64,000 nucleotides of DNA, from assembly GCF_002797535.1 (NCBI RefSeq), contig NZ_PGFD01000001.1:1116001-1180000 (forward strand), read 5' to 3'. The position numbers and the translations under genes were made by a program. Origin of the DNA: Chryseobacterium geocarposphaerae (GTDB taxonomy: Bacteria; Bacteroidota; Bacteroidia; Flavobacteriales; Weeksellaceae). The notes beneath the pieces are model-generated. The model saw only the letters and a list, made by a program, of their open reading frames with translations, was not told the origin of the DNA and did no database searches. Shown piece by piece: positions 24,127 to 46,377 of this stretch (positions are counted from its first letter, which is position 1; the number at the start of each line of letters is the position of its first letter).

Positions 24127-25293
24127 TTATACTGATTTTAGTATTATTTTTCCTTTTTTGGATTGTGTAAAAATAAGATAGTGATCTCCCCCATCTTTTA
24201 ATCCATATTTTTTCTTGATTTCTTCCGGTTTTAAAGGATAATTCTTTGATATAATATTAAACTGACTTTTCTTTTTAATCTGTTTACTATCAATTATTTC
24301 AGCCTCTAAAATTCTTCCGGGGAAATCTTCCACCTTTTCATTTGAAGTATAAAGATGTGTATTCGGATGAAGCTTTTTTACTTTAAAGTTTTCTGAAATC
24401 AAATTAAATACTCCCGCCTTTAAAATTGAGTTATTGGGAATATAGATAAACTTTTCAGGCTCAGCATATTCTGAATGAGCATTTTCTTCTTCTCCGAATT
24501 TATAGTTGAAAGTAGATTCTTCACTTTCTAAATTCACGCAATTACAGATAATCTCTTCTGATTCTTTGCTTGATAAAAAGACAACGATCTCTTTTACATC
24601 ATTTTTCCATGCAATAATATCAATCCTTGAAATATTCTGCAGAACAGAGACAAGGTATTTCAAATCGATAAGCGGAGATAATTTTATAACTACTTCATCA
24701 GAAATCGAAAGTAATTTCTTCTGAATTTGAAGAATGTCCGGTGACAAATCTTCTAATAAGAATACTTTGTTCTTATTATTATCTCTTCGGGCCGGATCCA
24801 TATATATTACATCAAAATTTTCTTCATTTTCATTAAGAAAATCTTCCAGTTTTTGATTGATAAATCTTGCTTTTCTACCTAAAACAGTCCAGTTATTTTC
24901 AACAATTGCTAAAAGTTCGGCATTTTGTTCAACGAGCGTAACCTCATCAAAATTTTTAGATAAATAATAGGCATCAATCCCAAAACCACTTGTAAGGTCA
25001 ATAAACTTTTTACCTTTTAAAATTTCAGATTTGTAGACTGCTGTTTTTTCTGAAGAAGCCTGTTCCAGATTAAGTTGTGGCGGAAAAATAATTCCTTCTT
25101 TTAATAAAAACGGAAACTTTTTCTCCGCCACCTGCTTTCCTTTGATCTGCTGAACGATTTCTTGCATCGAAACCTCTGAAAACGGAGATTTTTTCAATAA
25201 TAAGGAATGTAAATCTGTAGTTAGATTTGCATTGATGTATTTTTGGACATCAGAGTATAATAATTTATTTCCCACAGATTTCGCAAATATCAC
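24127..25293 (-). CDS. THUMP-like class I SAM methyltransferase
   Basis: This 388-residue protein has a methyltransferase core: FIDLTSGFGIDAYYLSKNF (motif I), VTLVEQN (motif II acidic end), then FDVIYMDPARRDNNKNK. The MDPARR sequence is typical of a Bacteroidetes group with a C-terminal THUMP-like domain, suggesting RNA as substrate. The target is unknown. The start is unusual: the frame begins with GTG at 25291-25293, which lies inside the 32-bp inverted terminal repeat of the neighbouring GxxExxY cassette. The first eight codons are therefore repeat sequence. The natural start was probably close to the NKLLYSDVQKY segment, before the cassette arrived. The C-terminus ends in a basic KKGKIILKSV. 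Confidence 0.78.
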   Translation of the reverse strand: MIFAKSVGNKLLYSDVQKYINANLTTDLHSLLLKKSPFSEVSMQEIVQQIKGKQVAEKKFPFLLKEGIIFPPQLNLEQASSEKTAVYKSEILKGKKFIDLTSGFGIDAYYLSKNFDEVTLVEQNAELLAIVENNWTVLGRKARFINQKLEDFLNENEENFDVIYMDPARRDNNKNKVFLLEDLSPDILQIQKKLLSISDEVVIKLSPLIDLKYLVSVLQNISRIDIIAWKNDVKEIVVFLSSKESEEIICNCVNLESEESTFNYKFGEEENAHSEYAEPEKFIYIPNNSILKAGVFNLISENFKVKKLHPNTHLYTSNEKVEDFPGRILEAEIIDSKQIKKKSQFNIISKNYPLKPEEIKKKYGLKDGGDHYLIFTQSKKGKIILKSV

Positions 25294-25300
25294 AGATTTT
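25269..25300 (-). repeat. Cassette inverted terminal repeat, left
   Basis: On the minus strand it reads AAAATCTGTGATATTTGCG and on to TCTGTGGGAA. It differs from the right copy at two positions and contains the GTG start of the methyltransferase frame. Confidence 0.8.
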
Positions 25301-25307
25301 AAACATT

Positions 25308-25691
25308 TTAATCAATAATTCCGTTTATTTTTCTAATTATATTTTTGTCAATATAATCTGTATTAAAATTGACTAGTATTCCTAATTTAAAATCCGTCAA
25401 CTTTAAATAGGTTAATAATTGTTTATGATGAACATTACTAATTTCTGGAATTGATTTTATTTCGATAATTACTTTATTTTCTACAATAATATCAGCAATA
25501 AAACTTGTATCTATCACAATCCCTTTATATTCAATTGGAATATGAACCTGGGTTTTCACACTTAAACCATTACTTTCTAACTCATGAACCAATACCTTTT
25601 CATAAACTTTTTCTAATAAACCAGGCCCAAGTTCGTTGTAAACAGAAAATATAGATTTTCTGATATAAAAACTAATTTCATTTTCATTCAT
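25308..25691 (-). CDS. GxxExxY protein (PD-(D/E)XK-like)
   Basis: This 127-residue protein matches the GxxExxY family. The name motif is visible as GLLEKVY (G25, E28, Y31 region), preceded by IRKSIFSVYNELGPG. A nuclease-like core follows: DTSFIADIIVENKVIIEIKS, with Asp and E-x-K in PD-(D/E)XK order, then HHKQLLTYLKLTDFKLGILVNF. The family is abundant in Flavobacteria and Cyanobacteria, with unknown function. The gene ends 7 bp from one inverted terminus and begins 26 bp from the other, so it is the only cargo of the cassette. It starts with ATG at 25691. Confidence 0.88.
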   Translation of the reverse strand: MNENEISFYIRKSIFSVYNELGPGLLEKVYEKVLVHELESNGLSVKTQVHIPIEYKGIVIDTSFIADIIVENKVIIEIKSIPEISNVHHKQLLTYLKLTDFKLGILVNFNTDYIDKNIIRKINGIID

Positions 25692-25717
25692 TTGTAGAAA
25701 ATTTATTTAGCTAAGCT

Positions 25718-25749
25718 AAAATCTGTGCTATTTGTGAAATCTGTGGGAA
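25718..25749 (+). repeat. Cassette inverted terminal repeat, right
   Basis: It reads AAAATCTGTGCTATTTGTG and on to TCTGTGGGAA on the plus strand. It ends five bases before the mutA stop codon complement at 25755-25757. Confidence 0.8.
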
Positions 25750-25754
25750 CAAAA

Positions 25755-26906
25755 TTACTCAAACATTTCAGCCCAACGAACAGCTTTAATACTTGTTTCG
25801 TTATATAATTCCTCAACTGTCTTTTTAACCTCTAATTTCGGGTATAAATTGACTCCAATCAGTTTTATTTTACCTTCTTCTACCCATCTTTGTTCTTCCA
25901 CAGCATGATTATAGATCTTCTTTTGAATGATACCTTGTTTTAAAAGCTCCAAATAACCTCCTGCCTCTTCAATTTCTACAAATAAAGCCCATGACTTTTC
26001 AGCGATTTGCTGTGTAATATCTTCCACGTAATAACTTCCGTTTGCGGCATCTTCAAAGACATTGATGATACTTTCGTAAGCTAAAACAATTTGTTGTTTG
26101 AAAGAAATTTCTTCTGAATTTTCCGTACTTCGGTCAACCAGATAATTATTGCTGAAAACTGCATCTGCTCCACCGATCATTGCAGAAGCCAATTCCAGCG
26201 TAGAACGGATCAGGTTATTTTCATTATCCGAAACTGCTTTATTTCTCAAAGAAGTTTCTGCGAAAATGTAAGGAATTTCGTCCAAGCCATATTCTTTTGA
26301 CAACTGATTGAAAACCATTTTAAAAGCTCTCAGTTTTGCCATTTCAAAGAAATAATTTCCTCCTGTAGCGATTCTGAAAATCAGTTTATTTAGGATTTCA
26401 GGTCCATATACTTCAACCAGTTCCTTTGTCTTTGCCAAAGCAATCCCCAATTGCTGATAAATTGCTGCTCCGGCATTTTGATGAAGAGAAATATCTACAC
26501 AAATATTTCTTTTAAATTCTTTTGCCAACAATTCTTTTACCAGCTGATCATTAATCACAGCTTCTTTTTCATCAAATACATCAATTAAAGAAAAATACTG
26601 ATCTTCTTCTTTTGGACTGATATGTCCCGCCAAATCAACATTATTAACAAAAATTGTTTTCTGTTCCAGATTTTCTACATTTTGATCCAAAATAAAGGCA
26701 AAAACATCTTCCTCTAGACTTTCGTGGTACCTTGCCACCAAATGAGTACTTTCTTCTATTTTTGGCAGGTTTACCAACGGTTTTTGTACCGAATCATAGT
26801 AAGGTTTCACTTGGATCCCTTCCAAATTGTCCTTGGTAAGAACGGAATAAATATCTTCTGTTTTAAGCTGTTTTTTTACTAGATTTTCCCAGGTTGTATT
26901 TGACAT
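25755..26906 (-). CDS. mutA: Methylmalonyl-CoA mutase small (beta) subunit
   Basis: This 383-residue protein is related to the TIM-barrel part of methylmalonyl-CoA mutase and lacks the C-terminal B12-binding domain, as expected for the small subunit. Family segments are KRNICVDISLHQNAGAAIYQQLGIALA, then IFRIATGGNYFFEMAKLRAFKMVF and AETSLRNKAVSDNENNLIRSTLELASAMIGGADAV. Together with the B12-bound large subunit it interconverts methylmalonyl- and succinyl-CoA. The large subunit gene, often directly downstream in Bacteroidetes, is not here; the downstream side is instead occupied by the GxxExxY cassette. Length is short for small subunits but no truncation is evident. Confidence 0.85.
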   Translation of the reverse strand: MSNTTWENLVKKQLKTEDIYSVLTKDNLEGIQVKPYYDSVQKPLVNLPKIEESTHLVARYHESLEEDVFAFILDQNVENLEQKTIFVNNVDLAGHISPKEEDQYFSLIDVFDEKEAVINDQLVKELLAKEFKRNICVDISLHQNAGAAIYQQLGIALAKTKELVEVYGPEILNKLIFRIATGGNYFFEMAKLRAFKMVFNQLSKEYGLDEIPYIFAETSLRNKAVSDNENNLIRSTLELASAMIGGADAVFSNNYLVDRSTENSEEISFKQQIVLAYESIINVFEDAANGSYYVEDITQQIAEKSWALFVEIEEAGGYLELLKQGIIQKKIYNHAVEEQRWVEEGKIKLIGVNLYPKLEVKKTVEELYNETSIKAVRWAEMFE

Positions 26907-46174: not shown

Positions 46175-46292
46175 GTTATTTTATGAATTTGTTTATTATT
46201 AACTTTCTTACTTCTTACAAATTTAACGATTAATTACCACGTGAGAAAGTGAGATTTGTCAATTTTAAAGTTATTGTTAAGTAAACTAAAAT

Positions 46293-46350
46293 GCTTCAAC
46301 TTCGCTCAGCATGACAACGTTACTATTTAAAAGCAGTTAGTACTAGAATG
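46293..46350. repeat. GTCAT...ATGAC-type dispersed repeat, copy 2
   Basis: CTTCGCTCAGCATGAC (46299-46314) is the complement of the GTCATnCTGAnnGAAG core seen at 4398. The element continues to GTCATGAAGTCGAAAC. It lies upstream of lpdA in the lpdA to 46378 gap, whose remainder is AT-rich with no gene seen. Confidence 0.6.
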
Positions 46351-46377
46351 TCATGAAGTCGAAACATTTATAAAATG

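Follow-up and report, generated by a model that had tools for sequence, protein, structure and literature searches.

A GxxExxY nuclease gene between inverted arrays of a 7-nucleotide word in Chryseobacterium geocarposphaerae: a candidate REPtron-like cassette

The DNA analysed here, hereafter the window, is a 64,000-nucleotide stretch of Chryseobacterium geocarposphaerae (assembly GCF_002797535.1, contig NZ_PGFD01000001.1, positions 1,116,001 to 1,180,000). It carries a small cassette in which a single gene encoding a GxxExxY (GX) protein lies between two inverted repeats. The GX gene (25308–25691, minus strand, 127 aa) lies between two other minus-strand genes, a PG_1098-like methyltransferase gene (24127–25293) and a mutA-like gene for a methylmalonyl-CoA mutase subunit (25755–26906), so that all three share one direction. 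The source genome (G000; G and L numbers denote sampled genomes and loci) is 4.11 Mb long and harbours three GX genes.

The sequence at 25269–25300 is identical at 30 of 32 positions to the reverse complement of 25718–25749, as stated in a first-pass annotation, and recounting extends these cores to arms of 41 nt with 37 matches, 25261–25301 on the left (3′ of the GX gene) and 25717–25757 on the right (5′ of it). With a scorer giving 1 for a match, −1 for a mismatch, −3 for gap opening and −1 for extension, the locus scores 33, whereas 2913 random placements in the window peak at 21. Each arm consists of three 7-nt words oriented inward to the GX gene: CACAGAT (25273–25279), CGCAAAT (25282–25288) and CACAGAT (25291–25297) on the plus strand of the left arm, and CACAGAT (25745–25739), CACAAAT (25736–25730) and CACAGAT (25727–25721) on the minus strand of the right arm. 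The outer ends of the cassette read TTCCCAC...GTGGGAA. The first-pass annotation had placed these ends within a few bases of both neighbours; they in fact overlap them, since the two GTG codons at which the downstream methyltransferase gene may start, 25293 and 25275 (25275–25293, minus strand), lie within the left arm and the right arm reaches the mutA stop codon (25755–25757). As also proposed earlier, the cassette includes no transposase, its single open reading frame (ORF) carrying PF13366 as its only domain.

The identification of the enclosed gene as a GxxExxY gene of the PD-(D/E)XK type likewise holds: its product matches PF13366 (PDDEXK_3) with 139.3 bits (cut-off 22) and TIGR04256 with 137.7 bits (cut-off 35). 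The D/E-x-K and QxxxY residues of the active site (E27, D67, E77, K79, Q91 and Y95 in the window protein) are near-invariant among GX proteins. The protein is thus a predicted PD-(D/E)XK nuclease, assigned on its modelled fold and its D...(D/E)xK residues; the predicted fold is Cas4/RecB-like (best structural match 4ic1), and four PADLOC Cas4/Cas4b profiles match it weakly. Cas4 proteins carry four cysteines for an Fe-S cluster. The window protein has none in its 127 residues and therefore no Cas4-type Fe-S cluster, and no cas genes lie beside it. GX genes were found in 93 of 98 genomes of the genus (0–9 copies each) and in 122 of 247 genomes of the phylum. Some GxxExxY domains are parts of larger proteins: in L503 (2989–5640, plus strand, 878 aa) the domain and a complete RecQ helicase (DEAD, Helicase_C, RQC and HRDC) form one in-frame fusion, L504 has a long ORF resembling this fusion, and in L505 (1971–3422, plus strand) it is joined to an Rce1-like (CAAX endopeptidase) domain.

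The association of gene and arms is not peculiar to the window. GX loci were gathered by protein similarity from the genus, the phylum and named genomes, leaving 211 after removal of duplicates and short flanks, and inverted repeats were searched within 350 nt of each gene. Strong repeats (score of at least 20) occur at 98/211 GX loci compared to 3/206 ordinary ORFs from the same contigs with no GX gene nearby (Fisher p 2e-31), 2/166 ORFs adjoining GX genes and 2/2110 block-shuffled flanks. Removing the mutA-methyltransferase junction (43 loci) and a further orthologous position (23 loci) still leaves them at 71/145. At least three inward-pointing words were detected at 135/211 loci, and at least three outward-pointing ones at 40/211. 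The median length of the 98 strong units is 522 bp, the arms being separated from the gene by 34 and 11 nt. Across loci, the arms are tandem arrays of 7-nt words (CACAGAT, CACAGAG, CGCAAAG, CGCAGAT and others) pointing to the gene. Gene plus arms is therefore a real, recurring unit. Beyond Bacteroidota, a GX gene of Gemmatimonadota (L358) is flanked by two hairpins of about 85 bp made of CGCAGAG words, and one of Sphingomonas (L360), packed between fabD and fabG of a fatty-acid operon, has a CGCGAAG array upstream; a Fusobacteriota GX gene (L361) shows no clear array (score 13). Two further arrangements were noticed. One orthologous GX locus of the genus, upstream of an apparent beta-mannosidase gene (23 loci, L039–L064), carries a AACGCAAAG...CTTTGCGTT hairpin upstream only, and none of the 23 reaches a score of 20. 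L283 and L298 contain pairs of GX genes in tandem, about 190–390 nt apart, possibly through tandem duplication of the cassette.

The words go with the proteins. Among 107 loci with a dominant word (at least three copies of one of eight preset 7-mers), the GX protein tree requires 25 word changes versus 60.1 in shuffles, none of 200 shuffles being as low. For the 50 loci that have no neighbour protein in common, 20 changes are needed, compared to a mean of 30.6 over 200 shuffles, the lowest of which needed 25; base by base in this set, the second and seventh positions are significant (0/200 each) and the fifth is not clearly so (14/200). When only the 21 proteins below 60% identity are kept, shuffles are as low in 6/200 cases for the whole word, 5/200 for base 2 and 2/200 for base 7, and base 5 shows no effect (200/200). 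Hosts of one family are hardly more likely to share a word than hosts of different families, the proportion of same-word pairs being 0.185 within and 0.179 between families, a rough comparison because named and unnamed family labels could not be matched. On these sequence comparisons, word type tracks the GX protein tree and not the host family. The protein columns that best follow the seventh base, in a comparison uncorrected for phylogeny, are Y18/H18 and N19/K19 (YN versus HK for T versus G).

This diversity is already visible in the source genome, where the second GX gene (L006) is flanked by CACAAAGG words, with one hairpin per side, and the third (L008) by CATTAAGG words. Since the three genes carry different words, the idea of a common terminus for all copies was rejected, and the window terminus does not explain the number of GX genes, as the first-pass annotation had suggested it might. 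The terminus does recur once outside the cassette, the single other strong match in the genome being a solo palindrome devoid of any gene (L004). A strict CACAGATT-N9-CACAGATT scan gave mostly chance-like matches and was set aside.

Gene-less arrays, termed solos below, are found in other genomes too. Among 247 phylum genomes, 35 contain three CACAGA words close together and 3 contain the reversed control pattern. PF13366 is present in 31/35 array-bearing genomes versus 91/212 others (Fisher p 3e-7, a value inflated by relatedness and by arrays adjacent to GX genes). Many arrays stand alone between genes, and several of them are palindromes of about 60–75 bp; they are few per genome, none having more than 17 matches to a single pattern. 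In G214, the solos have ends, TTGCCACAGATGGCAC...CTGTGCCATCTGTGGCAA, that recur on either side of one resident GX gene, and in G172 they share TCTCACAGAT...TCTGTGAGA with the flanks of a resident GX gene. After exclusion of 13 solos from genomes with no GX locus in hand, the remaining 55 of 68 were ranked against 280 GX loci, the loci of several genomes being only partly in hand. The locus of the solo's own genome came first for 15 of the 55 (about 0.8 expected). These 15 solos stem from 6 of 23 genomes; the single one of G257 lies in a long array beside a GX gene, and the two of G241 lie in one array. G257 is also one where long tandem arrays of CACAGATGG words, with a 47-bp period, extend on both sides of the GX gene (L208/L118).

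The history of the window cassette can be followed at the mutA-methyltransferase junction, for which 30 junctions were read by eye among 60 genomes carrying the methyltransferase gene. The GX gene is present in 11 and absent from 18; one more (L074) retains a 125-bp, internally deleted but two-armed form with a scrap of the GX C-terminus. In the 18 GX-less junctions, ATCTGTG is found at the methyltransferase start in 14, with one mismatch in 2, and is missing in 2 (L076 and L087). A recent insertion is thus not supported, as 11/30 junctions hold the gene and 16/18 GX-less ones keep the arm end (2 with a mismatch). At the source-genome locus with CATTAAGG words, 98 genomes were searched and 30 loci read, of which 27 were placed, 17 with the GX gene and 10 without. 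Pieces of arm or gene persist in 6 of these 10 (L409, L413, L414, L415, L420 and L421); none were seen in L411, L417 and L418, and L419 is doubtful. Most GX-less relatives keep pieces of the cassette at both loci, so they appear to result from losses rather than to be clean empty sites, and both cassettes seem to have been ancestral for a large part of the genus and to be in decay. The arm end appears to have been co-opted as the start codon of the methyltransferase gene, and it is this remnant that the term "domesticated", used in the first-pass annotation, fits best.

Other sequences are also present at this junction in some genomes. A second palindromic repeat, ATGCTTCGACTCCGCTCAGCATGACA...TGTCATGCTGAGCGGAGTCGAAGCAT, is present in 11 of the 30 junctions, all devoid of a GX gene there (L071–L073, L075, L077, L078, L080, L084, L086, L091 and L096), and a decayed copy of it lies in the window at 46288–46370. 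A DinB-like gene, absent from the source genome, precedes the methyltransferase gene in 14 of the 30 junctions (L068–L097) and coexists with the GX cassette in L089, L090 and L094.

Data on position come from the GX type of G214: ten further genomes of the genus encode relatives that are 65–83% identical to it. Eight of these 11 genes share a single position, with a symporter gene or an RdgB-like gene as neighbour, or with both if the contig extends far enough (gene names assigned by eye). The other three (L487, L488 and L489) lie at three other sites and are accompanied by GCCACGGAG-type arrays. One GX type is thus found at four sites within one genus, its unresolved protein tree giving no direction. 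Carriage by plasmids or phages was rejected, as GX genes were detected in only 7 of 72,556 plasmid records, all typed as non-mobilizable, and in none of 50,697 phage records (tblastn). The proposal of a mobile cassette made in the first-pass annotation therefore gains from the recurrence of the unit, the coupling of words to protein clades, the decay forms and the four sites; the mobility itself is something that we infer only, from sequence comparison.

The closest parallel is the RAYT-REP/REPIN system (REPtrons), in which a gene lies between two inverted repeats, repeat and protein trees agree and hairpin-forming doublets are dispersed (PMC2817692, PMC3116915). GX units resemble it as small, single-gene units between inverted repeats, with dispersed palindromes and agreeing word and protein trees. 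They differ in that the enzyme is a PD-(D/E)XK protein and not an HUH/Y1 transposase (Transposase_17), in that the arms are tandem 7-nt words lacking the 5′ GT(A/G)G head that precedes the palindrome in the REP sequences described there, and in that solos are few, their match to a resident GX gene being partial (6/23 genomes; one solo in the source genome). Because of the unrelated enzyme and the missing head, the GX unit is not a RAYT-REP member, but it may, by analogy, work in a similar way. The two-armed 125-bp form of L074 and the solo palindrome L004 recall miniature inverted-repeat transposable elements and other non-autonomous elements, although no parent transposase is known for the GX units and no target duplication was seen at the loci read; the lack of a transposase also sets the cassette apart from transposons and insertion sequences. 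A further parallel is offered by intervening sequences of 23S rRNA genes: that of Coxiella holds an S23p ORF (PF05635), is excised by RNase III and contains tandem GACAGAT heptamers (PMC4990558). It shares with the GX cassette a small ORF, a short unit, complementary ends and tandem heptamers, while the GX cassette lies between two protein genes, belongs to another gene family (PF13366) and uses other words. PF05635 four-helix-bundle genes are present in 90/118 genomes, with 11 copies in the source genome, and outside rRNA genes (L362–L391) 10/30 loci among the matches listed have inverted repeats scoring at least 20, with a different flank vocabulary (TTAGCTA, AGTATCAAGAT, GTACAAAGTA and GGCTACT). 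Because these loci share it, the word-array architecture seems wider than one protein family. In the literature searched, which left most subscription journals and bioRxiv outside its scope, the name GxxExxY appears in two papers, in one of them incidentally, and six word-array strings of 15–17 nt do not occur; further searches returned nothing relevant among the matches listed.

The reading that we favour, tentatively and at slightly less than even confidence, is that the window cassette belongs to a widespread REPtron-like system in which a PD-(D/E)XK nuclease has on either side inverted arrays, or whole hairpins, built from its cognate 7-nt word. It draws on the anatomy of the unit, its enrichment at GX genes, the protein-word coupling, some solo-GX matches, the conserved active site, the predicted fold, the four sites and the decay forms. 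The following model can be drawn. The GX nuclease would recognize and cut the arrays in their paired state, probably a hairpin formed by single-stranded DNA or within a cruciform. This would allow the cassette to be excised and inserted anew on rare occasions, and the solos likewise in trans. The window copy would have entered the mutA-methyltransferase interval long ago and been lost repeatedly in related species, in which the arm end, often kept, would supply the GTG start of the methyltransferase gene. Several observations weigh against this reading. Neither an inverted repeat scoring at least 18 nor three inward words were found at 55/211 GX loci. Neither excision, insertion, target duplication nor a clean empty site was seen at either source-genome locus, where remnants in most GX-less relatives left no target duplication to be read. 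For 17 of the 23 genomes in which solos could be compared with a GX locus, the own genome did not give the best match, and G279 is a clear counterexample. The G214 solo signature, present in 3/92 genomes of its family (11 copies in G214, two in G364 and one in G375), occurs in G364 and G375 without a G214-type GX gene, so that no dependence of solos on GX is shown; conversely, the exact signature is found in none of the ten other genomes with G214-type GX genes, whose arrays read CACGGAG. Word-protein coupling would also be expected if both merely travel together. The two arms show no concerted evolution beyond relatedness: a comparison with the three nearest relatives had given 41 wins and 17 losses, and concerted evolution is not claimed because the arms there were picked by their own similarity and an unbiased rerun was near even (38 wins, 31 losses and 15 ties).

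Some of these points favour a different explanation, which we regard as unlikely, in which a RAYT/HUH or DDE transposase acting in trans, or replication slippage at hairpins, moves the units, with GX being cargo, acting in regulation or persisting near the repeats as a nuclease that trims hairpins. Movement driven by GX is not demonstrated, the solos of 17/23 genomes match no resident GX gene, four of the 35 array-bearing genomes have solos without PF13366, and the PF05635 genes, non-nuclease by family, show the same architecture at a third of the loci listed. A mere passenger would nevertheless not be expected to have words coupled to its protein across unrelated sites and hosts, nor a near-invariant active site. 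Homing appears less probable still: GX would make a break in solo palindromes or in targets resembling the word, into which recombination would copy the cassette. Such a process would suit a small PD-(D/E)XK nuclease whose gene has arrays on both sides, solos being possible targets, and the GX-less junction of L076 reads TTGTGG where the arm end reads TCTGTGG; yet at the two loci compared, a solo and a full cassette were not found in the same place in close relatives except by deletion. About as improbable, if not slightly more so, is a regulatory role, the arms being operators, terminators or RNA-processing stems of the resident gene and GX having an ordinary DNA or RNA task. As mutA, the GX gene and the methyltransferase gene are co-directional, the arms could pair in mRNA, and the Coxiella intervening sequence may provide a precedent; such a role leaves unexplained the gene-less solos between unrelated genes and the presence of one GX type with its arrays at four sites.

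Taken as a whole, the many GX genes with arrays of their own word suggest a little-noticed kind of mobile DNA that pairs a nuclease with the repeats surrounding it. A broader proposal, more doubtful than the REPtron-like reading of the window cassette, is that GX proteins, as compact Cas4-like nucleases, are the enzymes of an unrecognized class of bacterial mobile DNA, each reading one 7-nt word and mobilizing its own cassette and, in trans, palindromes of Bacteroidota and other phyla, PF05635 cassettes being a parallel branch with its own vocabulary. If the GX unit is indeed of the kind proposed for the window cassette, it would give a role to the common but scarcely described GxxExxY family and could account for palindromic repeats that have so far gone unexplained. 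It would also imply a code between protein and word open to residue-by-residue testing (for example at positions 18–19, where YN versus HK would go with T versus G at the seventh base), and would assign to a Cas4/RecB-type nuclease a position in which HUH transposases have been known until now.
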